Source of the DNA: a virus
IMG/VR virus record: IMGVR_UViG_3300046715_000073
Location: 1 to 25,144 of that record
Strand: one strand, 5' to 3'
Length of the DNA: 25,144 nucleotides
Shown here: positions 14,741 through 25,144 of the stretch, piece by piece
Numbering within the stretch: the first letter of the stretch is position 1
How the letters are laid out: the number at the start of each line of letters is the position of its first letter
Notes under the pieces: generated by a model
The model's input: the letters and a program-made list of their open reading frames with translations, nothing else
Told to the model about the DNA's origin: nothing
The model's database searches: none
Translations under genes and position numbers: made by a program

Positions 14741-15141
14741 GAGGTCGCCTCCTCTGCCGACATTCCGCAGTACAAGCAGTGGGCGTTCACCAGCCGGTGA
14801 CCCCTGACGTTCGTGAAGCAGATGCCGAAGTGCTGCGGCTCGGAGGCCGCCTCCAGCTCGGCGATCCGCTCCCGGGCCTTAGCCAACGCGGCAAGTACCG
14901 GCTCGTGGTTGGCAATTTGTGCGCGTGCGTTCTCCAGCGCGATCCGTCCGCCACGGACCTCGGCCACGAGCTGGGGAACGTCGAAGTCCGTCAGGCGGTC
15001 GAGGTCGTCCTGGTCGGTCTCGTCCGGCATGGCGTACTGGCGGGCGATACGCAGCGCGCGGGCCATGATCGCGTCCAGGTCGAGCCCCGGCCGGTCGTCG
15101 CCCAACTGTTCGCTGCTGGGCGTCTGGTTCACTTGAGGCAC
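14737..15141 (-). CDS. Coiled-coil protein with C-terminal Cys pair
   Basis: The 134-residue protein starts at the GTG at 15141, chosen for the AAAGGGG ribosome site six bases upstream. A second GTG three codons in is possible. The first half is acidic (DETDQDDLDRLTDFDVPQL), the middle is a charged helix (LENARAQIANHEPVLAALAKARERIAELEAA), and the end has HFGICF...HCLYCGMS with three cysteines. It is the first gene of the coupled run that continues to 11881, presumably transcribed from the promoter at 15898-15926. No function recognised. Confidence 0.7.
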   Translation of the reverse strand: MPQVNQTPSSEQLGDDRPGLDLDAIMARALRIARQYAMPDETDQDDLDRLTDFDVPQLVAEVRGGRIALENARAQIANHEPVLAALAKARERIAELEAASEPQHFGICFTNVRGHRLVNAHCLYCGMSAEEATS

Positions 15142-15245
15142 GTGAAGCCCCTTTCGTTTCGTGGTTGCGGGGTGGATCGGTGCGGCTTTCGGGCCGCGGG
15201 CCCCTGCTGCCGGAGTGCGATCCGGTGGTGGGGGCTTTTGCCGTC

Positions 15246-15509
15246 TCAGGCGGCGGTGGCGAGTTGTGGTGTCGCGTACTCGGGGATGCCGAGGTATTCG
15301 GCTACCGCCTGGGCGGGGAAGCGGAGCTTGCGCGTGCTGCTGCCGGGGGTGGCGATGTCGATCACGCAGGCCTCGACGAACTGGGGGTCGTCGGCGAGGC
15401 GCATGTCGAGCCACGTGCGGCTGACCTTGAGCCACTTCATGAGCTCTTGCCTGGTGAGGAGCAGGGGGGTCTCGGTGTGCAGCTGCATGGGGGTGAGGGG
15501 CTGCTTCAC
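15246..15509 (-). CDS. Excisionase/AlpA-like DNA-binding protein
   Basis: The product is 87 residues from the GTG at 15509, which sits four bases after a perfect AAAGGAGG; an ATG further up would place that site inside the gene and is rejected. The pattern LLTRQELMKWLKVSRTWLDMRLADDP...RKLRFPAQAVAEYLG is the winged-helix layout of excisionases and AlpA-like proteins (helix-turn-helix, then a basic wing, then a helix). It lies 1.3 kb from the integrase, on the opposite strand, downstream of the Cro-like gene. It may direct excision or act as an early regulator. Confidence 0.65.
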   Translation of the reverse strand: MKQPLTPMQLHTETPLLLTRQELMKWLKVSRTWLDMRLADDPQFVEACVIDIATPGSSTRKLRFPAQAVAEYLGIPEYATPQLATAA

Positions 15510-15549
15510 GAGTCCTCCTTTCATCTGTTGCGGAAGCTTCTTCCGGCGA

Positions 15550-15557
15550 ATGTGGAA
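15550..15557. promoter_or_regulatory. ATGTGGAA site (outlying copy)
   Basis: One exact ATGTGGAA lies between the Cro-like and excisionase-like genes, about 300 bp from the main cluster. It could be an auxiliary operator for the same regulator. Confidence 0.4.
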
Positions 15558-15576
15558 ACTGCTGGCACGAAAAAGG

Positions 15577-15822
15577 TCACGTGGGGGCGTTGGTGCTGAA
15601 CAGTTCCGTGACGGGCTTGTCGAGGGCCTTCGCCAGCAGGTCGCAGGAGCGGTCTTCGAACTTGCTTCGCCCGCTGTGACCGGTAGAGACCATGTGACCG
15701 ATGGTGGAGCGGCTGATGCCGTAGCCGTCGATCCGTCTGGTCCTCTCGGCGAGGTCCTCGATGGACAGGTCGGCCGCCGCCATGGCTTCACGGATCGGCT
15801 GACCGTTGTCCAGTCTGTGCAT
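15577..15822 (-). CDS. Cro-like XRE-type helix-turn-helix regulator
   Basis: The 81-residue protein (MHRLDNGQPIREAMAAADLS) has the ATG at 15822 following AAAGGG. The helix-turn-helix reads LSIEDLAERTRRIDGYGISRSTIGHMVSTG, with a final helix that ends PVTELFS, the usual close of XRE proteins. It is the first gene of the minus-strand early transcript and faces the repressor-like gene across the operator region, so it is in the position of Cro. Extending the frame to 15921 would absorb the promoter and operators and is rejected. Confidence 0.75.
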   Translation of the reverse strand: MHRLDNGQPIREAMAAADLSIEDLAERTRRIDGYGISRSTIGHMVSTGHSGRSKFEDRSCDLLAKALDKPVTELFSTNAPT

Positions 15823-15897
15823 GGGGTGCCCTTTCGTGGCCGAGAGTGATGCCGCCGTGGCTGAATGTGGAAACCCGCCGGGCGACCTCGCTTCCAC

Positions 15898-15926
15898 ATT
15901 CAATGCTGTATGTGGAAGCATGTCAA
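15898..15926 (-). promoter_or_regulatory. Early promoter for the minus-strand operon
   Basis: On the minus strand, TTGACA (15926-15921) is followed by a 17-bp spacer and TTGAAT (15903-15898). The start point would be near 15891, about 70 nt before the Cro-like gene. One ATGTGGAA copy lies in the spacer and another overlaps the -10, so repressor binding would shut it off. Confidence 0.65.
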
Positions 15927-15938
15927 GGCATCTGGCGT

Positions 15939-15986
15939 GCCAGGATGCATTGGCCAGGGCTTCTGCATATGCCAGAGATTCCGCAT
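15939..15986. repeat. Three GCCAG...GCAT direct repeats
   Basis: Copies are GCCAGGATGCAT (15939-15950), GCCAGGGCTTCTGCAT (15953-15968) and GCCAGAGATTCCGCAT (15971-15986). The last two match at 13 of 16 positions with an 18-bp period. They lie between the minus-strand promoter and the plus-strand gene, so they may be a second class of regulator site. Confidence 0.4.
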
Positions 15987-16047
15987 GTGGAAATCAAAGC
16001 AGGTCACATACCCCGGGGCGACTTGTGGATCATGTAGAGAATGAAGG

Positions 16048-16413
16048 ATGCTTCTACATGTGGATGACCTTGCGGCCCTGATCGACAGAGTGATGCGGGA
16101 AAAGGACTGGACCCTGTCCACCCTCGCCCGCCGCTCCGGCCTGTCCGTGTCCACCCTCCACTCATGGAAAAGCGGCGACCGCGCCACCGGCAACCGGGGC
16201 CCCAACCCCGACAAGCTCCGCCAGCTCGCCGACGGCGCCGGCCTCACCGTCGCCGAAGTCTTCGAAGCCGCCGGCCGCCACGTGCCCGCCGCCATCGACG
16301 ACGAGGAAGAGCGCCGCTTCCTCCACCTCTTCCGCACCCTCGACGGTGCGGACCGCCGGGTCGTCGAGGCGACCATGCAGGCGATGAGTGAGCGTCAGAA
16401 GTCCCGATCGTGA
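16048..16413 (+). CDS. Phage repressor-like XRE protein
   Basis: The product is 121 residues from the ATG at 16048; a GTG at 16060 preceded by AAGGA at longer spacing is an alternative start. The HTH spans about residues 20-50 (DWTLSTLARRSGLSVSTLHSWKSG) and the domain closes with LRQLADGAGLTVAEVFEAAG. The C-terminal 45 residues are acidic or helical (DDEEERRFLHLFRTLDGADRRVVEATMQAM), a likely oligomerisation end; there is no LexA-type peptidase domain. It faces the Cro-like gene and precedes the integrase, the place of a CI-like repressor. Confidence 0.8.
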   Translation: MLLHVDDLAALIDRVMREKDWTLSTLARRSGLSVSTLHSWKSGDRATGNRGPNPDKLRQLADGAGLTVAEVFEAAGRHVPAAIDDEEERRFLHLFRTLDGADRRVVEATMQAMSERQKSRS

Positions 16414-16432
16414 CGAAAAACATGTGATCGAC

Positions 16433-16453
16433 GTACAACCATTTCGGTTGTAC
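16433..16453 (+). terminator. Inverted repeat after the repressor gene
   Basis: GTACAACC (16433-16440) and GGTTGTAC (16446-16453) form an 8-bp stem with a 5-nt loop, 20 nt after the repressor-like stop, followed by a moderately T-rich stretch. It is either a terminator or a protein site ahead of the integrase transcript. Confidence 0.45.
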
Positions 16454-16580
16454 ACATTTCTCTCACTGATCTCGTATGTGCGCTTCACGAACGGTAGTTG
16501 TCGGCTGTACGGTCGAAGTTCCGCCGTACCTCCACCTGCGGCCGGGCCAGTTGAGCCAAGCCTCGGCCATGGGGGGTCGT

Positions 16581-16844
16581 ATGTGTGTAACCGTGATCGT
16601 GGAGAGCATCAACCCGATCGCGCCACGGTGGGACAGGGACAGAGTCGCCATCGTCATCGGTGAAGGCCTGGACTATTTCCAGGCGTTGAAGCAAGTCAGA
16701 GTCCTCCTCATATACCTGGGCGCCCCACAGTTGGGTCTTGGTGCGACATGCTGGTGCGGGGACTACGTCGCCGTGCCGAAGAAGGCACACGTCCCCGTCC
16801 AGCGCACTGCGCACCGGCGCGAGGAGGCCCGTCATGCCCCGTAA
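16581..16844 (+). CDS. Small protein overlapping the integrase start
   Basis: The product is 87 residues from the ATG at 16581, five bases after a GGGGGG run; an ATG at 16569 in frame is less well supported. Codon third positions are mostly G or C, favouring coding. The product has predicted strands (CVTVIVESINPIA...RVAIVIGEGLDYFQAL), a CWC pair and a basic tail that ends 11 nt inside the integrase gene. The overlap suggests coupling to integrase translation. Function unknown, and its reality is less certain than its neighbours. Confidence 0.5.
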   Translation: MCVTVIVESINPIAPRWDRDRVAIVIGEGLDYFQALKQVRVLLIYLGAPQLGLGATCWCGDYVAVPKKAHVPVQRTAHRREEARHAP

Positions 16845-18117
16845 GGCCCGCAACAATCCGAGACAGCTCCGCATCAAGTCGTGCGGCTGCAAGGCGTGCA
16901 CAGCGCAGTTCCGGCCCGGCGAGGACTGGACCCGCAAGACGTGCACCGGCCCGTGGCAGGCCCGGTATCGCGACCCGGCCGGCAAGCAGCGAGCCAAAAC
17001 CTTCTCGGGCGAGAACGCCAACAAGAAGGCCAACGCGTTCCTCGACAACGTGCGCGACAAGGTGCGCTCCGGATCCTTCGTGGACCTCGACCGCGGGGCG
17101 ATCACCATCGACGACTGGCACGCGAAGTGGCGCCCGACCCGGCGCATCGCCGACAACACCGACGAGACCGCGGACAGTGTGTGGCTCAACCATGTGCAGC
17201 CGCACTTCGGTTCGTGGCCGCTGGTGTCGATCAGTCACCTTGATGTCGAGGCGTGGATTGCGAAGCTGGTCACGAAGGTCGGCAAGGCCACCATCGACAA
17301 GGCGTACCAGATGCTCGACGGGATGATGACGGCGGCCGTCCGTGACCGGCGCATCGCGCAGAACCCGTGTGACGGGGTGAAGCTGCCGAAGGCTCAGCCG
17401 AAGCACCCGGACGATCTGATGCCGCCCACCTACGACCAGCTGGCCGAGATCCGCGGCGAGTTCCCCGAGCACTTCCACGCGTTCCTGATCGTGGCGGAGG
17501 AGACGGGGCTGCGCTGGGGCGAGATGGTCGGGCTGCGCCGCTGCTGGGTGGACTTCGACGACGCCAGCATCCAGGTCCGCGAGACGGTCATCCAGGTGCG
17601 CGGCAGGATGCGGCGCAAGGCGTACCCGAAGTCGGCGGCCGGCTGCCGCACCGTGCCGCTGACGGATCGTGCCGCGCATGCCTTGAAGGCGCACCTTCAG
17701 GCGCATCCGGCGAAGGCGACGCGGACAGCTCCGGGCAGCGGCATGCATGCGGAGGAGCTGGTGTTCCGCTCCCCGTGGGCGGGCCGGAAGGTGAAGGGCC
17801 GTGCCGTGTTCGACGGGGTGATGGACCGGTCCGGGTTCTGGCGGAAGTGGAACCGGGCGACGGACAGTACGGGGATTTCGCGGAAGGTGGAGAATCCGGC
17901 GACGGGCCGCATCGAGCGGTGGCCGCACTTCCACGATGTGCGGCACGCGTTCGCCTCGAGGCTGCATGAGCTGGGGATTCCGGAGGCGGATGCGCAGCGG
18001 ATCCTCGGGCATGAGCGGGGCGCGAAGATCACGTGGCTGTACACGCACGCCAGCAAGGACTCGGTGTCGAGCGTGCGGAACGCGCTGAATGGCGGCGGGC
18101 TGCGCCGTGTCGTGTAG
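16834..18117 (+). CDS. int: Tyrosine integrase
   Basis: The 427-residue protein starts at the ATG at 16834, which follows GAGGAGG. The catalytic set is visible: R227 (ETGLRWGEMVGLR), K266 (YPKSAAG), H367 and R370 (HFHDVRHAFAS), H393 (ILGHE) and the nucleophile Y403 (TWLYTHAS). The core-binding SAM-like domain spans about 90-185 and the N-terminal arm-binding part carries a Cys group (SCGCKAC, C37). The enzyme joins phage and host att sites. Arm-like repeats directly downstream (18131-18415) put attP next to int, the usual order. The frame is open upstream, but the ribosome site decides the start. Confidence 0.95.
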   Translation: MPRKARNNPRQLRIKSCGCKACTAQFRPGEDWTRKTCTGPWQARYRDPAGKQRAKTFSGENANKKANAFLDNVRDKVRSGSFVDLDRGAITIDDWHAKWRPTRRIADNTDETADSVWLNHVQPHFGSWPLVSISHLDVEAWIAKLVTKVGKATIDKAYQMLDGMMTAAVRDRRIAQNPCDGVKLPKAQPKHPDDLMPPTYDQLAEIRGEFPEHFHAFLIVAEETGLRWGEMVGLRRCWVDFDDASIQVRETVIQVRGRMRRKAYPKSAAGCRTVPLTDRAAHALKAHLQAHPAKATRTAPGSGMHAEELVFRSPWAGRKVKGRAVFDGVMDRSGFWRKWNRATDSTGISRKVENPATGRIERWPHFHDVRHAFASRLHELGIPEADAQRILGHERGAKITWLYTHASKDSVSSVRNALNGGGLRRVV

Positions 18118-18130
18118 TGGACCGCGGAAA

Positions 18131-18415
18131 GTCCACAACCCGTCCACGCGACCACGTGCACGCACATTCACCTACATGCGAAAGTGGCGGGTTGTGGATG
18201 CGGTCTGACCTGGCCTTTCCCGCCCTGCGAGCCTTCCACCAGTGTGGATACCGCATCCACATCGGCTAACCCTTTTCCCGGTTCAGATAGTTGTTCATTC
18301 TGTCGGAGATGATCAGTATGGATGGCTGCCGTGCAGGTCAGCGTCCACATGGAGATGCGGGAAGACTTCGGGCGGATCAATGCGGAAGGCCAGGAATCCA
18401 CATCCCGTCCACAAC
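18131..18415. other. Probable attP region with integrase arm-type repeats
   Basis: The 11-mer TCCACAACCCG at 18132-18142 recurs exactly inverted at 18188-18198. A near copy extended to 16 bp (TCCACATCCCGTCCAC, 15 of 16 matches to 18132-18147) is at 18397-18412. Further TCCACA cores are at 18256, 18344 and 18408 and, inverted, at 18243; TGTGGAT-ACCGC-ATCCACA (18243-18261) is a perfect dyad. Seven TCCACA cores in 285 bp directly after int is what arm sites look like. The crossover core is not identifiable without a host att sequence. Confidence 0.6.
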
Positions 18416-18466
18416 GCCGCGTCCGTCGGTGATTCGCCCGAAGGGATGAGGGTGCCGCAGGTCCCA

Positions 18467-18495
18467 TTCCCATGCAGCGGCCAATGATCTAGCGT
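18467..18495 (+). promoter_or_regulatory. Candidate promoter for a small RNA
   Basis: TTCCCA (18467-18472), a 17-bp spacer and TAGCGT (18490-18495) form a plausible Streptomyces vegetative promoter. No good start codon with a ribosome site follows, only a run of hairpins and a terminator. The -35 match is weak. Confidence 0.4.
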
Positions 18496-18501
18496 GACGA
18501 T

Positions 18502-18705
18502 CACCTGGGGAGGGGTTTGCTTCGGCGGCCCCCTCGATGCACCCCCACGCGAGTACCGGTGGGGAAGAGGTAGGCAGGGCTTCGGTCCTGCCGGTGGAGC
18601 CTTGCCTCCACTGGAGGCGTCCCCCGTCGCTTAGCTCGGCGGGGGACGTTCTGCTGACAGTAGACCGCCCCGACCCAAATGAGGGTCGGGGCGGTCTCGT
18701 TTTAA
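18502..18705 (+). ncRNA. Candidate structured non-coding RNA, about 200 nt
   Basis: Between the candidate promoter and a strong terminator the sequence can form consecutive hairpins: CCCCAC/GTGGGG (18543-18564), an 8-bp stem capped by a cUUCGg tetraloop (18573-18592), GTGGAG/CTCCAC (18594-18611) and GTCCCCCG/CGGGGGAC (18619-18647). No convincing reading frame with a ribosome site fits. I do not recognise a known RNA family. Its place beside attP may mean it is carried by the phage for the lysogenic state, but that is inference. Confidence 0.45.
18662..18705 (+). terminator. Strong intrinsic terminator
   Basis: A perfect 15-bp stem (AGACCGCCCCGACCC at 18662-18676 with its complement at 18683-18697), a 6-nt loop, then CGTTTT. 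It is the best terminator in the window and has no protein-coding gene directly upstream, which supports a transcript such as the candidate RNA. Confidence 0.8.
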
Positions 18706-18721
18706 CAGCCGTTCAAGTCTG

Positions 18722-18832
18722 GGCGGCGGCCGGCGGATGCACCTACGCGCGACCGCCGCCTCCGTCCGCCGTGCTGGGGGGTGGCAGGTGCTGCGGCGGA
18801 CGGGCGGCTGGCGCGGGGTCCGGGCGCCAGCC
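18722..18832. other. GC-rich hairpins upstream of the XRE gene
   Basis: GGCGGCGG (18722-18729) can pair with CCGCCGCC (18753-18760), and GGCTGGCGC (18806-18814) pairs perfectly with GCGCCAGCC (18824-18832) before AAGTTT. No gene is evident here. The second hairpin may be another terminator or insulate the following XRE gene. Confidence 0.4.
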
Positions 18833-18911
18833 AAGTTTCCACTGTTCAAGATCGTCAAATGTATGCCTGCGTAGGCTGACTCATGATCGTTGTGGCCCGA
18901 GCGTTTGTCGA

Positions 18912-19148
18912 GTGCCACGCGAACCCGACCCTGACTGGATCATCCGACGACGCCAGGCGATCGGCGACCGCGTCCGGTCCGAACGGGAGTACGCCAACCT
19001 CAGCCAGGAGCAGCTGGGCTATCGCGCCGGGATCACACGCCTGACCATTCAGCGCATCGAATCCGGCGCCACCGATGCCCGCATCGGCTGGCTCCTGCGG
19101 ATCTCTGCGGATCTCGGCGTACCACTGGCAGACCTCCTCGGAGACTGA
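18912..19148 (+). CDS. Small XRE-family regulator
   Basis: The product is 78 residues from the GTG at 18912. The helix-turn-helix (EYANLSQEQLGYRAGITRLTIQRIESGATDARIGWLLRISADLGVPLADLLGD) is a textbook XRE/Cro domain with nothing added. There is no clear ribosome site; a TAGGCT hexamer lies about 35 nt upstream. The start is not certain because the frame stays open through the hairpin region upstream. It follows the att region, so it could be phage cargo that acts in the lysogen. Confidence 0.75.
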   Translation: MPREPDPDWIIRRRQAIGDRVRSEREYANLSQEQLGYRAGITRLTIQRIESGATDARIGWLLRISADLGVPLADLLGD

Positions 19149-19155
19149 GTGCAAC

Positions 19156-19195
19156 CCCGGCCGTCCTGCTGGCTCCACCTCGCGTGGCGGCCGGG
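19156..19195 (+). terminator. Hairpin after the XRE gene
   Basis: CCCGGCCG (19156-19163) pairs with CGGCCGGG (19188-19195), with a smaller CCAC/GTGG hairpin inside, eight bases after the XRE stop codon. There is no T-tract. The remaining bases to 19330 hold no gene I can support. Confidence 0.45.
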
Positions 19196-19330
19196 AACTC
19201 ATGCGGATCACTCCGTGTATGCCCAGGCATGCATTGAACGGGGGATACCGCCGGTAGCGGAAGGCGCTTACTGCATATATCTGCGCAAGTCCTGTGCCCT
19301 GTGTGAACATCTCGCCGAGCGCGAAGCCAT

Positions 19331-19353
19331 GGCCAGAGGGTCAGCCTCTGGCC
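19331..19353 (-). terminator. Hairpin terminator of the small zinc-protein operon
   Basis: GGCCAGAGG (19331-19339) pairs perfectly with CCTCTGGCC (19345-19353) around a 5-nt loop that holds part of the stop codon of the minus-strand gene ending at 19341. Confidence 0.6.
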
Positions 19354-19532
19354 TGCCGTATCAGCCGACAGGTGACGCATCGGCAGCGGGTGAGCGGGAT
19401 GGCCGGCCCGGGCCCTGGCTTCAGCCAATGGTTGCCCTCGCAGTAGTCGTGTTCACCGATCCGGCAGGGCCCGCACTCGTCGCCGCGGGTGTCGTCGGCG
19501 TCCACCTTCGGACGGCCGTCAGGGCCGTTCAT
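19341..19532 (-). CDS. Small Cys-rich protein
   Basis: The 63-residue protein (MNGPDGRPKVDADD) contains ECGPCRIGEHDYCEGNHW and then RCRCVTCR: six cysteines and two histidines, probably two zinc sites. The ATG at 19532 overlaps the stop of the gene before it (ATGA). Together they form a two-gene minus-strand unit in the accessory region. Function unknown. Confidence 0.7.
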   Translation of the reverse strand: MNGPDGRPKVDADDTRGDECGPCRIGEHDYCEGNHWLKPGPGPAIPLTRCRCVTCRLIRQARG

Positions 19533-19723
19533 GACCCGCCCCCGACCGGGTACCGGGGGGCGTGGTCGGGGCAGGCGTACACGGTGCGGCCGGCGCCAGC
19601 GGCGGCCCACGCTTCGCCGACCGCTATCGGCTGGTGAGTGATGAACCCGCAGTCGCAGCAGGTCTGCGGCTCGACGTCTGCCGCGGTCTGGTGCTCGGGC
19701 GGCGGGTTCGTAGGCTGTTCCAT
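19529..19723 (-). CDS. Small zinc-binding protein
   Basis: The product is 64 residues from the ATG at 19723 with CGGAG upstream. It has TCCDCGFITHQPI followed by a G/A-rich spacer and YACPDHAPRYP, a C-x2-C...C-x2-H arrangement that I associate with short Streptomyces proteins. The role is unknown. It starts the two-gene unit, facing the GntR gene across a 160-bp control region. Confidence 0.7.
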   Translation of the reverse strand: MEQPTNPPPEHQTAADVEPQTCCDCGFITHQPIAVGEAWAAAGAGRTVYACPDHAPRYPVGGGS

Positions 19724-19811
19724 GGCGGCGCTCCGGTTAGTGTCGTCCACGCCCCCGGGCCGTTCACGCGGTCGCGGGGGTTCTCTGTGAATTTGCAGGC
19801 TAGCCGGACTT

Positions 19812-19841
19812 GTATCGCTCTGTCTCACGACGTTTCGATAC
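19812..19841. promoter_or_regulatory. Inverted repeat between divergent units
   Basis: GTATCG (19812-19817) and CGATAC (19836-19841) form a spaced dyad between the zinc-protein unit (minus) and the GntR gene (plus). It is short, so it is only a candidate operator for the GntR-type protein. Confidence 0.3.
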
Positions 19842-19874
19842 GTAGCCCGAGATGCCAGGTTGTAGGTGCCTGCC

Positions 19875-19880
19875 TAGCTT
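19875..19880 (+). promoter_or_regulatory. -10 element of a probable leaderless promoter
   Basis: TAGCTT ends six bases before the ATG of the GntR gene, and no Shine-Dalgarno sequence is present. The transcript would start at or next to the ATG. The -35 is not clear. Confidence 0.45.
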
Positions 19881-19886
19881 CGGATC

Positions 19887-20153
19887 ATGACCGTTGATCC
19901 TGACGCTGAGATCGACCACGAGGGCCCCGTCACCCCGTACCGGCAGCTCGCGGCCATCCTGAAGGCGCGGATCGCCCGGGGCGACTGGGCGGAAGGGCGG
20001 CCGATCGCATCCGAGACGCGGCTGGTGCAGGAGTACGGGATCGCCCGGACCACCGTGCGGCGCGCCCTTGACGTCCTCGTCGAGGAGCAGGTCGTATGGA
20101 AGGTGCAGGGGCGCGGCACCTATGTGGGGCAGCCGCCCGCCGTTGAGGGCTGA
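19887..20153 (+). CDS. GntR-family regulator, DNA-binding domain only
   Basis: In this 88-residue protein, residues 16-80 form the GntR winged helix: YRQLAAILKARIARGDWAEGRPIASETRLVQEYGIARTTVRRALDVLVEEQVVWKVQGRGTYV. There is no effector-binding domain, so it is a short form such as those found on Streptomyces plasmids and phages. It would bind DNA as a dimer. The ATG has no ribosome site and sits just after a -10-like TAGCTT, so leaderless translation is likely. Confidence 0.88.
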   Translation: MTVDPDAEIDHEGPVTPYRQLAAILKARIARGDWAEGRPIASETRLVQEYGIARTTVRRALDVLVEEQVVWKVQGRGTYVGQPPAVEG

Positions 20154-20173
20154 CCGCTGTCCGACCCGGCCAC

Positions 20174-20180
20174 TAAGATC
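20174..20180 (+). promoter_or_regulatory. -10 element of a probable leaderless promoter
   Basis: TAAGAT lies about six bases before the ATG of the next small gene. The intervening bases are a short G run, and the spacing again suggests transcription starting at the ATG. Confidence 0.4.
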
Positions 20181-20185
20181 GGGGC

Positions 20186-20380
20186 ATGCCCCCAACTCCC
20201 GCGCCGCGCAGCTCTGTGCGCCCGTCTGCCGTGGTGAACCGGCTGATCCGGGAGCTGCTGCTGCGGACTGGCGGATGGCTGTACGGGGAGACGCGGCGGG
20301 AGTACGAGCAGCTCGTCGCCGAGTGGACGATGGCCACCGCGGCGGAGCGGCTGCGCGGGGACGTCGTGAAGGCGGCTTAG
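20186..20380 (+). CDS. Small protein, function unknown
   Basis: The 64-residue protein has a Pro/Arg N-terminus (MPPTPAPRSSVRPS) followed by helices (VVNRLIRELLLRTGGWLYGETRREYEQLVAEWTMATAAERLRGDVVKAA). It follows the GntR gene by 32 nt. No family recognised. The start appears leaderless (TAAGAT just upstream). Confidence 0.65.
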   Translation: MPPTPAPRSSVRPSAVVNRLIRELLLRTGGWLYGETRREYEQLVAEWTMATAAERLRGDVVKAA

Positions 20381-20391
20381 GATTCCGTCAC

Positions 20392-20592
20392 GTGGCAACC
20401 ATCGAATTTCCCGACGATCTGATCGCACTGGCCCGCACCTCCTGGGCTGAGATCCAGGCCGGGCGACTGACCGTGGACACGGCGCGCGCCGTACATGAGG
20501 CGGTCAGCGCATTCGCCGCGCAGGCCGGGCTGCGGCGGATGGACGTCGAGCTCGGGCTGAAGTCGCTCGTGCGGTACGAGATGGCGGCTTAG
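20392..20592 (+). CDS. Small protein, function unknown
   Basis: The product is 66 residues from the GTG at 20392 (VATIEFPDDLIALARTSWAEIQ). It is mostly helical with Ala-rich segments (TARAVHEAVSAFAAQAGLRRMDVELGLKSLVRYEMAA). A TAGGAT hexamer at 20378-20383, overlapping the stop of the gene before, lies eight bases upstream and no ribosome site is seen, so its transcript may be leaderless. The stop overlaps the end of a convergent tiny gene. No family recognised. Confidence 0.65.
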   Translation: MATIEFPDDLIALARTSWAEIQAGRLTVDTARAVHEAVSAFAAQAGLRRMDVELGLKSLVRYEMAA

Positions 20593-20684
20593 AAGCCGAG
20601 CCAGTCCAGGCAGTTCCAGAAGCCGTCACGGGTGTCACGGGCCCAGCGGGCGAGAGCATCACGCAGGAATCGGACGGGCGCCAT
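20589..20684 (-). CDS. Tiny coupled ORF (31 aa)
   Basis: The product is 31 residues from the ATG at 20684: a basic amphipathic helix (PVRFLRDALARWARD) and an aromatic end (FWNCLDWLGF). The ATG shares a base with the TGA of the DUF6221 gene (TGATG), the same junction used elsewhere in this window, and its TAA overlaps the stop of the convergent gene. The aromatic/basic content is not random-looking, but a gene this short cannot be proven from one sequence. Confidence 0.4.
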   Translation of the reverse strand: MAPVRFLRDALARWARDTRDGFWNCLDWLGF

Positions 20685-21109
20685 CAGTCCTCCAGCCAGG
20701 CCGGATCGAAGTCCGGGTGGTCCCGGTAGACAGCGACATCGCGGCGGGCAACGCGACGTAGCGTGTTCACGGCTCCAGTCATCAGGTCATGCGGCGGCGT
20801 TCCCGGCCCTGCTGTGCTCAGCGTGAACTCGGCCTGCTCCAGGTCGTGCAGCACCTGCTGCTTGGCCTCGATCTCCCGTAGCGCCCGCTCGGGGTGCCAT
20901 GTCGTTACCGCATCGGCGACCGGTCCCTCGGGCCACCGCGAGGTCCGCCCGTCCAGCGCTCCACCCACCGAGAGGATCACCCTGCCGCCTTCAGCGTCCA
21001 CGATGCTTCCCGAGCCTTCCATCCGCCACGGGCCACGTGGTGCAGCGTTCGCGATCCGCCCGTCCTCGTCGAGCCGCGCCCGCAGGAACTGCACCAGGTC
21101 GTCGCTCAC
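20684..21109 (-). CDS. DUF6221 family protein
   Basis: In this 141-residue protein, the start VSDDLVQFLRARLDEDGRIA, the central WHPERALREIEAKQQVLHDLE and the end YRDHPDFDPAWLED are the signatures I recognise for DUF6221, a family abundant in actinobacteria and their phages with no known role. The GTG at 21109 has GGAGG five bases upstream. It precedes the tiny ORF and follows two small genes after a gap of 131 nt in which I see no gene. Confidence 0.8.
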   Translation of the reverse strand: MSDDLVQFLRARLDEDGRIANAAPRGPWRMEGSGSIVDAEGGRVILSVGGALDGRTSRWPEGPVADAVTTWHPERALREIEAKQQVLHDLEQAEFTLSTAGPGTPPHDLMTGAVNTLRRVARRDVAVYRDHPDFDPAWLED

Positions 21110-21240
21110 GGATCCTCCGAGGGTTGCGGCCCCGCCCGGGGTTCCACGCTCGAACGGGGCGCCAGCAACAGCAAACCCGCGCTTGGCTTGTGCCTGCAAC
21201 GGATGAGGCCAGGGTAAACCGCGCCACCGACAGCGCCGGG

Positions 21241-21429
21241 TCACGCCTCCGGCCACACCGCCAGCGTCTCGCCGGTCGCCTCGTCGACGAGCACCACCCG
21301 GGCATCGGCGACACCGGAGCCCACCCAGCGCGTGAACTTGCCGCGGGCCGTCATCTCGCTCCCCCACCAGCCGTGCTGGACCGGGCGGCCGGCGGAGGCG
21401 AGGGTGACGCGGAAGCGTTCGGCGTTCAC
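21241..21429 (-). CDS. Small protein, function unknown
   Basis: The product is 62 residues from the GTG at 21429, overlapping the stop of the gene before (GTGA). The sequence VNAERFRVTLASAGRPVQHGWWGSEMTARGKFTRWVG then ARVVLVDEATGETLAVWPEA suggests a small all-beta protein. No family recognised. Open frame upstream belongs to the shadow of the preceding gene. Confidence 0.65.
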   Translation of the reverse strand: MNAERFRVTLASAGRPVQHGWWGSEMTARGKFTRWVGSGVADARVVLVDEATGETLAVWPEA

Positions 21430-21689
21430 CGGCTGGACCGCAGGTTCCATCCGGCGATCATGTGGTCCCGGCATTCGTCCACCCAGCGCGGCCCCAGCCT
21501 CGGCAGCGACACGAGGCGTGTGAAGGTGGCGGGCTGGCCGCACGTCGAACAGCCCTTGCGGTCCGGGGAGTCGGGGTAGACGCGGGCCTGCCAGCCCGGC
21601 GCCCGCACCACATCATCCGGGCCCGCCTCCAGAGCCTGCGGGTCGATGCCGAGGGCGGCCAGGACGTCGAACTCGGATCTTGTCGCCAT
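21426..21689 (-). CDS. Small zinc-finger-like protein
   Basis: The product is 87 residues from the ATG at 21689. After a helical N-terminus (SEFDVLAALGIDPQAL) it has GCSTCGQPATFTRLVSLPRLGPRWVDECRDH, a C-x2-C...C-x2-H metal site. There is no ribosome site; a -10 (TCTAAT) lies six bases upstream, so the mRNA may be leaderless. It leads a short operon with the next small gene and perhaps DUF6221. Confidence 0.7.
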   Translation of the reverse strand: MATRSEFDVLAALGIDPQALEAGPDDVVRAPGWQARVYPDSPDRKGCSTCGQPATFTRLVSLPRLGPRWVDECRDHMIAGWNLRSSR

Positions 21690-21695
21690 GCAGGC

Positions 21696-21725
21696 ATTAG
21701 AGCGCGTGTTCGAATTGCGGGGCAA
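21696..21725 (-). promoter_or_regulatory. Probable leaderless promoter
   Basis: On the minus strand, TTGCCC (21725-21720) is followed by an 18-bp spacer and TCTAAT (21701-21696), which ends six bases before the ATG at 21689. Five of six -10 bases match the consensus. Confidence 0.5.
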
Positions 21726-21741
21726 GTCGGTAGGCAGCAGA

Positions 21742-21776
21742 AGACCCCTGCCGACGGGGGATGACAGCAGGGGTCT
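21742..21776 (-). terminator. Hairpin terminator of the recombinase/nuclease unit
   Basis: AGACCCCTGC (21742-21751) pairs perfectly with GCAGGGGTCT (21767-21776) around a 15-nt loop, 40 nt after the GIY-YIG gene stop. It closes the two-gene unit and separates it from the next promoter. Confidence 0.65.
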
Positions 21777-21816
21777 CGAGTCAGTGTGGCATTACTGAGC
21801 GGTCCAGGTCGGCCAC

Positions 21817-23106
21817 TTAGCTCGTCAGCGCGTCATCGGAGTCGAATAGCACGGCAGAGTCAACGTCGATGTCCACAACATCAGGAACCTGAGGCGCTTC
21901 AGTCGCCTCGTAGAGATCGCCTACATCAACGACGATCGGCCGAGACTGTAGGCCAAGTTGCTCCGTAAACCATTCTCCCGCCAGCTCCATGGCGTCCTGG
22001 AGAGCTGCCGCGGGGAAGTACTCAACACCTCGGGTTGGTAGCCATCCTTCGCTGTCGAGTCCGTCTAGGACGGACTTTTCCAACGCTCTCGCCGCGCCGA
22101 CAGGCATCCCTTGGATCCGCAGGTGCTGCACAGTCAGTCCATCATCGGCGTGGTACCGAAGGCGGTTGTAACCGCTTCCCGAGCTGATGCCGGGCTTCAT
22201 GGTCTCCTCACCGGTCGTGACGTCCAGTCCACTTACGATGTAGTAGACGTCGTGCGGTGGGACCCCGCCGTACATCCCCCGTGGGCATTCGGGACATCCA
22301 CGCTTCACCTTGTTCGGGGTGAGGCCAAACTCGTGGCCTGCGAAGCAGACGGCCTGGTGAGCGCGTGACGCAGCTATCCATTGCGGCTCAAGAACGGTGA
22401 TGCCAAGATCCTTGGCTCTCCCTGAGAACTCCTGGAACTTGGTCAGCTTGTTGCAGGCGCCGCAGAAGTCCGACCGGATGGCTTCGCGCTCGATTCGACC
22501 GTCAACACGGAACGTGTGCAGGTGGCCGCGGCGGCACCTGATGTCGACACCGTTTCTGTATCGCTGCACGATCGTGGATCGAGTCTCGCCTACAACCGTC
22601 TCGATCTTGGCGAACCCGGCTGCGAACGAGGCGGCGGCTTGGCAGGTCGGGCACAGGATGTCGGTCCGCCCATCAGGCCGCTTCCACACGTTGAGCCCGG
22701 TCGTCTTGAAGCGGTGTCCCTTCGAGCACTTCGCCGCGAAAACGATATGCCCTTCCCCGGACTCGTCCCGCTCGTCCGAAGGTATGAGGTCCACGCCCTG
22801 CGCCGTCGCCGCCGACTTCAAAGTGGCCACGCATTCTGCAACCCAGTCAGCGTTGCGACACGTCATGCACCACGGGTAGCTAGGGTCTAGGCCGAAGGGC
22901 CTGGAGGTCGAGACGATGTCCCAGGCGGTAACGCGGAACTCATGCCCGGCGCTACATCTGGCGTCGGTCCATCCGGTCAGACCACGCTCGTGATCCAGCG
23001 TCCACCCCTGCCGCTTGCACGCCTGACGGAACAGGTCCATCAGTGCAGTGATGTGAACGGCAGCTTCCGCGCTTACGTCCCAGGGCTCCGGCTGTTCACT
23101 CGTCAC
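21817..23106 (-). CDS. Zinc-module protein with GIY-YIG-like C-terminal domain
   Basis: The 429-residue protein carries four modules of C-x3-H ... C-x2-C: C51/H55/C80/C83, C127/H131/C152/C155, C191/H195/C215/C218 and C254/H258/C271/C274. Three of the four start with C-x2-GHxF; the third reads C-x2-GHLHTF. Such repeats resemble DUF4379-type treble-clef zinc modules often fused to nucleases. Residues 285-365 then read DVYYIVSG...MKPGISS...NRLRYHAD...LEKSVLDGL...RGVEYFP, fitting a GIY-YIG fold (YYI, KPGIS, R316, E343). The C-terminus is acidic. The GTG at 23106 overlaps the recombinase stop (GTGA). Codon use looks less GC-biased than most neighbours, suggesting recent arrival. DNA cleavage is inferred. 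Confidence 0.7.
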   Translation of the reverse strand: MTSEQPEPWDVSAEAAVHITALMDLFRQACKRQGWTLDHERGLTGWTDARCSAGHEFRVTAWDIVSTSRPFGLDPSYPWCMTCRNADWVAECVATLKSAATAQGVDLIPSDERDESGEGHIVFAAKCSKGHRFKTTGLNVWKRPDGRTDILCPTCQAAASFAAGFAKIETVVGETRSTIVQRYRNGVDIRCRRGHLHTFRVDGRIEREAIRSDFCGACNKLTKFQEFSGRAKDLGITVLEPQWIAASRAHQAVCFAGHEFGLTPNKVKRGCPECPRGMYGGVPPHDVYYIVSGLDVTTGEETMKPGISSGSGYNRLRYHADDGLTVQHLRIQGMPVGAARALEKSVLDGLDSEGWLPTRGVEYFPAAALQDAMELAGEWFTEQLGLQSRPIVVDVGDLYEATEAPQVPDVVDIDVDSAVLFDSDDALTS

Positions 23107-23672
23107 GCGCGCTCCAGGTGACGGTAGATGGTCGGCCTGCTGACGCCGAACTCGTCGGCGATCTGCTGCACGGTGTACTTACGCTTACCGTCCGTGCCGG
23201 TCTCGTCGTACATCTCCTGCGCGAGCTTGATCTGGCGGGCCTTGAGCTTCGGCTTCTGTCCGCCGGTGCGTCCGCGAGCGCGAGCGGCTTCTAGGCCCTG
23301 CTTGGTGCGTTCGACCATGAGGCTGTGCTCGAACTCGGCGACGGCGCCCAGGATGTGAAAGAACATCTGACCCACGGGGGTCGACGTGTCGATGCCTTGG
23401 TCAAGGACGACGAGCTGGACGCCGCGCGCGCGGAGGTCGTCGCCGATGTCCATGAGGTTGCGGAGGGACCGGCCGAGGCGGTCGAGTTTGGTGATGACGA
23501 GGTAGTCGCCTTCTCGCACGGCGACGAGCGCCTTGTCCAGTTCGGGCCGTGAGGCGAGCTTGCCGCTGAGCTTATCGACGAAGATCTGGTCGCACTTGGC
23601 GTCGGTGAGTGCGTCGCGCTGGGCTTCAGGGTGTTGGTCGGAGGTGGACACGCGTCCGTAGCCGATTCGCAT
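23103..23672 (-). CDS. Serine recombinase (resolvase/invertase family)
   Basis: The 189-residue protein starts MRIGYGRVSTSDQHPEAQRD with the nucleophile Ser9, followed by KLSGKLASRPELDKALVAVREGDYLVITKLDRLGRSLRNL (the family's R-rich active-site segment), an E helix (EFEHSLMVERTKQGLEAARARGR) and a C-terminal HTH (YTVQQIADEFGVSRPTIYRHLE). It is full length for a Hin/Tn3-type enzyme. These proteins recombine two short DNA sites. It is transcribed first and coupled to the GIY-YIG-like gene. The ATG at 23672 has only a poorly placed GAGG and a TACACT five bases upstream. Confidence 0.95.
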   Translation of the reverse strand: MRIGYGRVSTSDQHPEAQRDALTDAKCDQIFVDKLSGKLASRPELDKALVAVREGDYLVITKLDRLGRSLRNLMDIGDDLRARGVQLVVLDQGIDTSTPVGQMFFHILGAVAEFEHSLMVERTKQGLEAARARGRTGGQKPKLKARQIKLAQEMYDETGTDGKRKYTVQQIADEFGVSRPTIYRHLERA

Positions 23673-23799
23673 GCCTCAGTGTATCGGGAACGGGGGAGAT
23701 CATTACATAGATGCGGACACGGGTTGCGTAACAACAACGTCCCAGCGTGGGGGTGTTGAAGCGGAGTGAATCACAGACGTTCGTTTGCGGACACAGCAG

Positions 23800-23833
23800 A
23801 ACGCCCCCGCTACCCGAAGGCAGCGGGGGCGTT
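23800..23833 (-). terminator. Terminator of the lysis-type operon
   Basis: AACGCCCCCGCT (23800-23811) pairs perfectly with AGCGGGGGCGTT (23822-23833) around a 10-nt loop, ten bases after the stop of the tiny proline-rich gene. Stem strength suggests it stops the minus-strand operon. Confidence 0.7.
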
Positions 23834-23842
23834 GACGTGCGG

Positions 23843-23944
23843 TCACTCGTCGTCGTCCACCGGCGGCATAGGCGGTGGTTCGCGGAACGGGCGGGGCGAC
23901 AGCCAGAACGGGGGGTCGTCGCGCGGCGGGGCAGGGCTGGGCAT
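23843..23944 (-). CDS. Tiny proline-rich protein (33 aa)
   Basis: The product is 33 residues from the ATG at 23944, which has a strong AGGAGGA six bases upstream, better than most in the window. The chain is Pro-rich with an aromatic centre (DDPPFWLSPRPFREPPPMPPVDDDE). It is the last gene before the operon terminator. The strong ribosome site is the main argument for it being real. Function unknown. Confidence 0.55.
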   Translation of the reverse strand: MPSPAPPRDDPPFWLSPRPFREPPPMPPVDDDE

Positions 23945-23954
23945 GGGGTTCCTC

Positions 23955-24575
23955 CTACACGTACTGACGGCGGCTGGGGTCGAGTCCGGCAGCCTGCGGG
24001 GACGGGCTGTCACTGCCCCCAGGATCCGGCGCACCATCCTTGCGGCAGACGAGAGCATCCGGGTCCCAGCTCGGGGCCTGCAGCGAGTAGCCGTCAGGGC
24101 AGGTCTGGCCGTCCTTGCCGTCGGCGCCGTCACGTCCGTCCGTACCGTCCTGGCCTGCCGGGCCGGCGGGGCCTGGCTCGCCCTGAGGTCCTTCCGGCCC
24201 GGTCGGTCCGACTGCTCCTGGGCTCCCAGTCGCCCCGGGGCTTCCGGCGGCACCAGCCTTTCCCGGCGAGCCCGGTGTGCCGGGACTCCCCGACGGGCCT
24301 GGCTCGCCGCTCGCACCGCGTGGGCCGCGCGGTCCGACGATGGACTGGCCCGTCTCGCCGCGGCTTCCTGGCGGCCCAGCGACCGGTTTCCCGCCGAGTT
24401 TCTGCACCTGTGCGGCCAGAAGATCGCGGGCTTCGTTCGCGGTGCGCAGGTCGTGGGAGAGCTGCTGCATGGTGATGACGACCCAGGCGAGCAGTGCGAG
24501 TGCGGCCACGGATCCGATGGCGAACCACACGTCGGCCCGGCGGCGCATCGTGGCCCGGGAGCTGTGAGCACTCAC
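23955..24575 (-). CDS. Membrane-anchored collagen-like protein
   Basis: The product is 206 residues: a short basic N-terminus, a membrane segment ([20 protein letters not shown], about 16-35), a coiled-coil neck ([24 protein letters not shown]), then about 90 residues of Gly-X-Y repeats ([12 protein letters not shown] through GKDGQ), and a small C-terminal domain with two cysteines ([19 protein letters not shown]). It would form a trimer with the collagen rod outside the cytoplasm. Collagen-like proteins occur in phage tails and near lysis genes; a spanin-like role is only a guess. The GTG at 24575 overlaps the preceding stop. Confidence 0.85.
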
Positions 24576-24916
24576 GAGCCCGCCCCCCTTGCCGCAAGGT
24601 AGGCCTGCAGTAGCAGGATCAGCACAGGGGCGACGAGTGCGGCGAACACCAGGCGCCGGTCTGCGCGGCGCTGGTCTTCCGCTTTTTGGCGTGCCATCTC
24701 CGCGTCCTGACGCTCCTTCTGGCGGGCCGTCTCGATCGCCTGAATGCGCTCCATCATCGCCACGTGGACTTCGTCCCGGTTGCGCCGCTCGAGCTCGTAC
24801 CGCTCCAGGCTGACCTTGGCGTCGAGCCGCTTGGCGATCTCCCGGAAGTCCTCCTTGAGGTCTTGGTGTACGGCCTCAAGGCGGCGGGCCAGCTCGCCGT
24901 TCGACGGATCGTCCAC
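24572..24916 (-). CDS. Coiled-coil protein with C-terminal membrane segment
   Basis: The product is 114 residues from the GTG at 24916, with CGGAG upstream. Residues 5-85 are charged and heptad-like ([55 protein letters not shown]...), followed by a hydrophobic segment near the end ([20 protein letters not shown]). Proteins of this build commonly sit next to holins in actinophages and may help assemble the holin complex. No family name is certain. Confidence 0.75.
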
Positions 24917-24928
24917 GTGTGGCTCCGG

Positions 24929-25141
24929 TCAGATACTGCCCGGCGTCGCGGGCTGCGAGGCGGGAGCGGCCGGGCTGGCCGGAGAGACCTGCACCCGGGT
25001 GAGCAAGGTGAGCGTGGCCAGGATGACGGTGTTGATGGCGCCGACCGTCGACTGGGACACGTCGTACCCGAACGTGGCTACCAGGACGGCGCCAGCGGCG
25101 ACGACCGCGGTGAAGGCCTGCGGGGCGATCGGCCTGGTCAT
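24929..25141 (-). CDS. Putative holin (two membrane segments)
   Basis: The product is 70 residues from the ATG at 25141: two hydrophobic stretches (about 9-25, FTAVVAAGAVLVATFGY, and 32-47, VGAINTVILATLTLLT) joined by a short polar turn and followed by a Pro/Ala/Ser-rich tail. Size and topology fit a small phage holin that would open the membrane to the endolysin. The endolysin is not in the window but would be expected upstream (to the right). The ribosome site lies outside the window. Confidence 0.65.
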   Translation of the reverse strand: MTRPIAPQAFTAVVAAGAVLVATFGYDVSQSTVGAINTVILATLTLLTRVQVSPASPAAPASQPATPGSI

Positions 25142-25144
25142 GGC

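Follow-up and report, generated by a model that had tools for sequence, protein, structure and literature searches.

Positions 18499-18703 of the window, by which we mean the whole 25,144-base virus record IMGVR_UViG_3300046715_000073 (positions 1 to 25,144), almost certainly hold a real, conserved RNA gene. Relatives were found at no fewer than 41 other loci, in phages and prophages of Streptomyces, and the order integrase gene (int), attP, RNA and small HTH gene is common to its three subtypes. Our best reading overall, held with somewhat better than even confidence, is that of a non-coding RNA of the lysogeny module which the prophage expresses and which acts in trans. The relatives show the window to derive from a temperate phage of Streptomyces.

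Results

The RNA and its neighbourhood in the window

The RNA comprises about six hairpins plus a terminator hairpin (Table 1). On the plus strand, the region 18480-18706 reached a folding energy of -131 kcal/mol, compared with -100.4 (sd 5.0) for 200 dinucleotide shuffles, none of which was as good (z -6.1); the minus strand folded less well (z -5.2). The stable hairpins described in the initial annotation, among them one with a cUUCGg tetraloop, are thus present. In subtype A, to which the window belongs, an alternative GGGG/CCCC helix at the place of subtype C's P1 is incompatible with P3. Constrained folding preferred P3 by 5.6 to 12.1 kcal/mol in 6/6 subtype-A sequences; subtype A may still switch between the two.

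The window integrase is 80-81% identical to those of two related viral contigs, L001 and L002. In the relatives, the interval corresponding to the attP region contains either a dodecin gene or the 3' end of a tRNA; a scan of the window for tRNA found none. Past the RNA terminator, a second GC-rich, dyad-rich conserved stretch (window 18715-18825) is kept in L001 and L002, and GGATGCACCTACGCG within it resembles the GATGCACC junction of the RNA itself. Inverted repeats GCCTgcgTAGGC, TTTGCCTGGctgGGCAAAG and TTTGCCAcgcaTGGCAAAG lie ahead of the HTH start (window 18845-18890, L060 6040-6060, L058 5985-6010), probably forming the operator of the HTH gene. Farther downstream, on the minus strand (21817-23672), a serine resolvase adjoins a 429-residue protein that weakly matches a zinc ribbon; the two may be a mobile gene pair.

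Table 1. Features of the RNA locus and its surroundings, in window coordinates.
Feature	Position	Strand	Remarks
Tyrosine integrase gene (int), 427 aa	16834-18117	+	Pfam Phage_integrase 1e-17
attP region (candidate)	18131-18415	.	between arm-like repeats TCCACAACCCGTCCAC from 18132 and TCCACATCCCGTCCACAAC from 18397
RNA promoter (predicted)	18467-18495	+	-35 TTCCCA 18467-18472, 17-bp spacer, -10 TAGCGT 18490-18495
Structured non-coding RNA, subtype A, ~200 nt	18499-18703	+	fold, homologues, covariation
P1 helix closing three-way junction	18503-18571	+	ACCU 18503-18506 / AGGU 18568-18571
P2 hairpin, variable, then conserved GAUGCAC	18510-18535	+	
P3 hairpin, conserved loop NRNAC	18543-18564	+	
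P4 hairpin, cUUCGg tetraloop	18573-18592	+	covaries; absent in L001 and L002
P5 hairpin GGUGGAG-CCUUGC-CUCCACU	18593-18612	+	subtype A's most conserved stretch
P6 hairpin	18618-18648	+	common to all subtypes; covaries
Linker with ACAGUAGACCGCCCC (common to subtypes), terminator hairpin 18663-18696 and tail	18649-18703	+	
Xre-type HTH gene, 78 aa	18912-19148	+	relative after RNA in 32/40 loci checked
GntR-type regulator	19887-20153		

Relatives and covariation in subtype A

Subtype A consists of eight loci including the window. An integrase search found the viral contigs L001 and L002. Streptomyces luteolifulvus, S. indicus and one further viral contig came from an integrase alignment, whose third genome match, L013, was dropped as a 21% Bacilli match. 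A DNA search then gave an RNA homologue in all five of the other integrase-related records first tested, and a pattern search yielded two more viral contigs (L046 and L302). Looser patterns in viral contigs returned chance matches (L007-L010), and blastn with the window region matched nothing among phages and plasmids.

We fitted the eight sequences to a model, R1, built from six of them, and 96.8% of the helix cells in this alignment pair. At 14 of the 45 pairs both partners had changed with pairing retained, which none of 500 shuffles equalled (mean 6.6, sd 1.9); controls with slid partners gave 1-5 such changes. A weaker measure, the number of further pair types, came to 28 against 25.1 and was equalled by 62/500 shuffles. 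Covariation is best in P4 and P6. P3 shows one-sided changes only, P1 and P3 both rest on few changes, and two of the P2 pair changes can also be explained by a paired indel. G-U cells outnumber A-C cells in the helices by 18:1. A kissing loop, looked for in subtype A, was not found.

Across 392 Streptomyces genomes, R1 matched strongly in S. luteolifulvus only. Weak matches turned up in eight other genomes; as the reverse-strand self match of R1 reaches 37 bits, these were left uncounted until met by other evidence. Five coincide with an HTH or a subtype-B model hit (G131, G184, G364; G365, G188), so that two independent search lines meet in 5/8 genomes; in G131 the weak match is on the strand opposite to the RNA found with the subtype-B model. 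G216, G275 and G280 have no such support.

Subtype B and a possible loop-loop contact

The subtype-B model, R2, was built from nine sequences (L063, L072, L094, L100, L110, L113, L126, L128 and phage OnionKnight). At E <= 0.001 it matched 28 of the 392 Streptomyces genomes, and in 20 of these the score was at least 69.9 bits. Among 246 genomes from the class it gave three matches, two already included in the Streptomyces hits and one weak (42 bits). A pattern demanding both loops met at least 120 stretches in viral contigs; when 80 loci among those listed (L182-L261) were given to R2, six matched.

In an alignment of 20 non-model sequences fitted to R2, 92.1% of cells paired and 31/40 pairs changed on both sides (shuffle mean 13.5, reached in 0/500; slid partners 9-13). 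The initial annotation had proposed compensatory changes in homologous loci as a check, and such changes are present in both subtypes. With the loop contact added to the model, 31/46 pairs changed on both sides in 23 sequences; aligning the same 23 by MAFFT without structure gave 26/46 (mean 12.7, 0/500), with 87.0% of cells paired. G-U cells exceeded A-C cells by 65:21, and in both subtypes the excess agrees with this strand being that of the RNA.

Between the loops of P2 (CUCCCC) and P3 (GGGGAG), 5-6 pairs could form in all 23 subtype-B loci whose discovery did not depend on a pattern requiring this contact, a count from which the six viral loci are left out because their pattern demands both loops. 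R2 also favours both loops, and its nine source loci make up the cleanest set for this comparison. Both loops are near-invariant, with variation limited to G-U variants. Complementarity of near-invariant loops on variable stems suggests that P2 and P3 make contact in subtype B. By eye only, a kissing loop can be drawn in three of the four subtype-C loci.

Extent of the family

Including the window, we counted eight subtype-A, at least 29 subtype-B and four subtype-C loci (L080, L096, L101, L121) and the divergent locus of phage mu1/6, which falls outside the three subtypes, making at least 42 loci. The subtype-B tally holds the nine model sequences, phage VWB, 13 further genome loci and six viral loci among those listed. 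A protein profile of the downstream HTH gene matched 99/392 Streptomyces genomes at E <= 1e-15. We examined 98 loci, 90 around HTH matches (a subset of a larger number) and eight others, and the shared 3' motif A[AG]ACCG?CCCC was present in 26 of them; L111, L117, L120 and L124 carry it by chance or in unrelated places, and L069, with the 3' part only, was left uncounted.

What connects the three subtypes is their context, the position of the promoter and the 3' part, in which P6, linker and terminator are shared; their 5' domains cannot be aligned end to end, and we infer common descent of this domain. A subtype-B blastn query picked out OnionKnight and VWB among phages and nothing convincing among plasmids, and a subtype-C query found no phage. 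The annotated records of OnionKnight, mu1/6 and VWB hold no RNA feature at the locus. Those of OnionKnight and mu1/6 have no annotated feature on the RNA at all; in VWB, where gp58 is the HTH gene, a hypothetical ORF, gp60, runs antisense over the RNA (L152 1008-1415) and is probably not a gene.

Rfam 15 at the gathering score gave no match in the window and only three tRNAs in eight related loci. At E up to 10, the window gave sub-threshold matches only, the best of them chance-like (Chloroflexus-1, E 0.0033, 21.7 of 181.5 bits). Searches of the open-licence literature gave no paper whose title or abstract beginning describes the RNA. The lack of an Rfam match and the covariation in both subtypes bear out the suggestion in the initial annotation of a new structured RNA: the family appears to be new, its broad kind, the phage-borne small RNA gene, being already known.

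Promoter, terminator and coding potential

A -35 element TTCC, a 17-bp spacer and a -10 element TANNNT stand at a constant distance from the RNA in all seven subtype-A members examined; the promoter that had been called plausible from 18467 onward therefore withstands comparison. A TANNNT box occupies the expected place in 32/34 loci (7/7 in subtype A, 21/23 in B, 4/4 in C) and is missing in L167 and L173. The RNA promoter was not listed by a generic sigma-70 scan; the comparative evidence argues for a promoter of its own, as an independent gene would have.

A consensus terminator scan of 15000-25144 did not list the hairpin at 18663-18696, whose T-run is interrupted, and in most relatives a second hairpin takes the place of the T-run. 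A terminator, as expected of a small RNA gene, is present as a conserved hairpin and tandem hairpins, with a weak T-run. The hairpin noted earlier as the window's strongest terminator is thus real and conserved, and its rank as the strongest was not confirmed.

An open frame on the plus strand (18537-19148) crosses the RNA in frame with the HTH gene. RNA length shifts by non-multiples of 3 in two of the six other subtype-A members, 15/20 subtype-B lengths are not divisible by 3, and each of the three frames carries in-frame stops in some relative. These off-3 length changes and stops argue that the RNA is not coding, in agreement with the earlier statement that the region has no supported reading frame.

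Gene order and integration

In all 12 loci with int in reach, the end of int and the start of the RNA are 363-477 nt apart on the same strand. In 32/40 loci, an HTH relative lies 106-352 nt past P6 in the orientation of the RNA, a count that leaves out L302 and mu1/6 and in which adjacency is by construction for loci found through the HTH gene; those found without an HTH search include L158, L161, L162, L171, L172, VWB and six viral contigs. The placement of the RNA between attP and accessory genes, as first described, accordingly holds in the relatives. Two of the 40 loci have partial overlapping HTH matches and six have none within the flank, which indicates that the RNA is separable from the HTH gene. 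These six (L163, L164, L166, L168, L169 and L173), where R2 found the RNA and no HTH relative lies within 1.5 kb, are either degraded prophages or cases of the RNA kept alone.

In 17 of the 21 chromosomal subtype-B loci, a tRNA gene on the same strand lies upstream, with 86-325 nt between its end and the start of the RNA model; in 11 of these 17 the distance is nearly constant, at 166-170 nt. Integrated copies keep promoter elements and RNA beside the tRNA, with the -10 box intact. The attachment core varies while the RNA stays: L001, L002 and S. luteolifulvus have a dodecin segment there, S. indicus and L046 the end of a tRNA. Segments of the dodecin gene are found in attP of L001 (6496-6729, NCBIfam dodecin 9e-34), L002 and L011 (6430-6640). 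S. luteolifulvus shows integration into a dodecin gene; tRNA ends are used by relatives whose integrases are similar. In S. luteolifulvus, ~67 kb of a single contig separate int from the RNA, and dodecin sequence is present at either end. The S. indicus contig NZ_FNFF01000025.1 (62,152 bases) carries the same tRNA-end sequence at both ends (L012 6380-6491, L018 1-100), which gives it the appearance of a circular phage molecule included in the assembly.

Discussion

We propose that the locus would be a self-contained RNA gene of about 200 nt with its own promoter, its transcript starting a few nucleotides past the -10 box. The 5' part folds into a compact domain of P1 with hairpins P2 and P3, whose loops could kiss in subtype B, and the 3' end is a module shared by the subtypes, made up of P6, the conserved linker and the terminator hairpins. 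Relative to the attachment site the gene lies on the phage side, across attP from int. Owing to this position, it stays intact with its promoter after integration and can be made in a lysogen. The most likely role would be that of a trans regulatory RNA in the lysogen, working by base pairing or protein binding. Such action is favoured by the promoter and terminator being kept after integration, by the conservation of the promoter, and by a 5' domain that exceeds what a terminator needs. The comparisons establish the sequence family, its fold, the preferred strand, the conservation of the promoter and the gene order; we infer transcription, trans action and every downstream effect of the RNA, and our confidence in trans action in the lysogen, taken by itself, is evenly balanced. 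This sequence analysis found no target or binding protein of the RNA.

The main rival is cis control of int as in phage lambda, where sib/tI is responsible for retroregulation of int: sib is cut by RNase III, and int mRNA is lowered. Here, the int transcript of the circular phage would cross attP and end in the structure, which would set the decay or stability of the int mRNA; control would be exerted only before integration. Like sib/tI, the RNA is a structure located immediately beyond attP, on the same strand as int, and is split from int by integration, by the ~67 kb already mentioned in S. luteolifulvus. The single-strand order int, attP and RNA holds wherever int is in reach, the hairpins and the terminator are strong, and a position directly past attP suits a cis element of int equally well. 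Unlike sib/tI, the RNA here has a conserved, predicted promoter of its own, a length of ~200 nt, a multi-helix 5' domain and a possible loop-loop contact. A processing site needs neither a promoter directly ahead of the structure nor a covarying 5' domain with a possible kissing loop, and an element reached by read-through only would have no promoter, whereas conserved promoter elements are predicted upstream, with the -10 box in nearly all loci compared. The gene also persists in integrated copies with that box intact. We regard cis control of this kind as unlikely on present evidence; cis action before integration and trans action in the lysogen could both occur.

The compact fold might instead serve as a protein-binding scaffold or decoy that titrates a host or phage protein with no base pairing to targets. 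Invariant loops and linker within variable helices (GGGGAG, NRNAC, RUARACCGCCCC) are consistent with this, and a kissing loop would mask the C-rich loop, which would otherwise be free for pairing with targets, but there is no candidate protein, and we give the idea a rather small chance. The same-strand HTH gene downstream raises the question of a cis-acting leader or attenuator. This we consider very unlikely, because terminator hairpins and 100-200 nt with their own conserved promoter-like and dyad sequences intervene, and the RNA also occurs at the six loci that have no HTH relative nearby. Least credible of all is a DNA-level element (an attP accessory, packaging or replication site) that folds incidentally, or a chance GC-rich fold. 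Closeness to attP and the GC-rich dyads would suit it, yet it is opposed by covariation with G-U over A-C on one strand, by the conserved promoter and by the shuffle and slid-partner controls.

Several narrower ideas were dropped. In a hammerhead, the three-way junction is surrounded by CUGANGA, GAAA and a UH cleavage site; the junction here reads GAUGCA, with GGGG before P2 (by eye, in the subtype-A alignment), and there is no Rfam match to a hammerhead ribozyme. P3, searched as one exact sequence form, had no match in genome contigs; on the strength of that one form, the idea of a CRISPR-repeat mimic or RNA anti-CRISPR was laid aside. The shared GAUCACCU resembles the 16S 3' end, and mimicry of the latter was rejected since the match length is within chance. 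A further idea, that the P5 loop pairs with the HTH start, was abandoned because the window's own loop does not allow it.

Phage small regulatory RNAs with their own promoter and terminator are known, such as P4 CI RNA and lambda OOP. The RNA resembles them as an autonomous short RNA gene in the lysogeny region and differs in showing no sequence or structural similarity to them by Rfam scans. Purine riboswitches have L2-L3 kissing loops, and here too two hairpin loops could pair mutually; in contrast to those riboswitches, subtype-B P3 lies outside P1, the terminator is away from a gene, and there is no Rfam match. A more speculative possibility, which we think improbable, is a class of attachment-site RNAs that act in cis on int mRNA in the circular phage and in trans in the lysogen, reporting and enforcing the integrated state. 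If this were true, subtypes A, B and C would be specificity classes of one device.

To our knowledge, few RNAs have so far been found to take part in the lysogeny of Streptomyces phages. A conserved RNA gene is present in the long-known phages VWB and mu1/6 and, by the subtype-B model alone, in 28/392 sampled Streptomyces genomes. It was missed because annotation looks for proteins. The gene is small, its helices and loops are defined, and phages carrying it can be grown in laboratory strains, so that a part in lysogeny, in the control of int or in immunity is directly testable.
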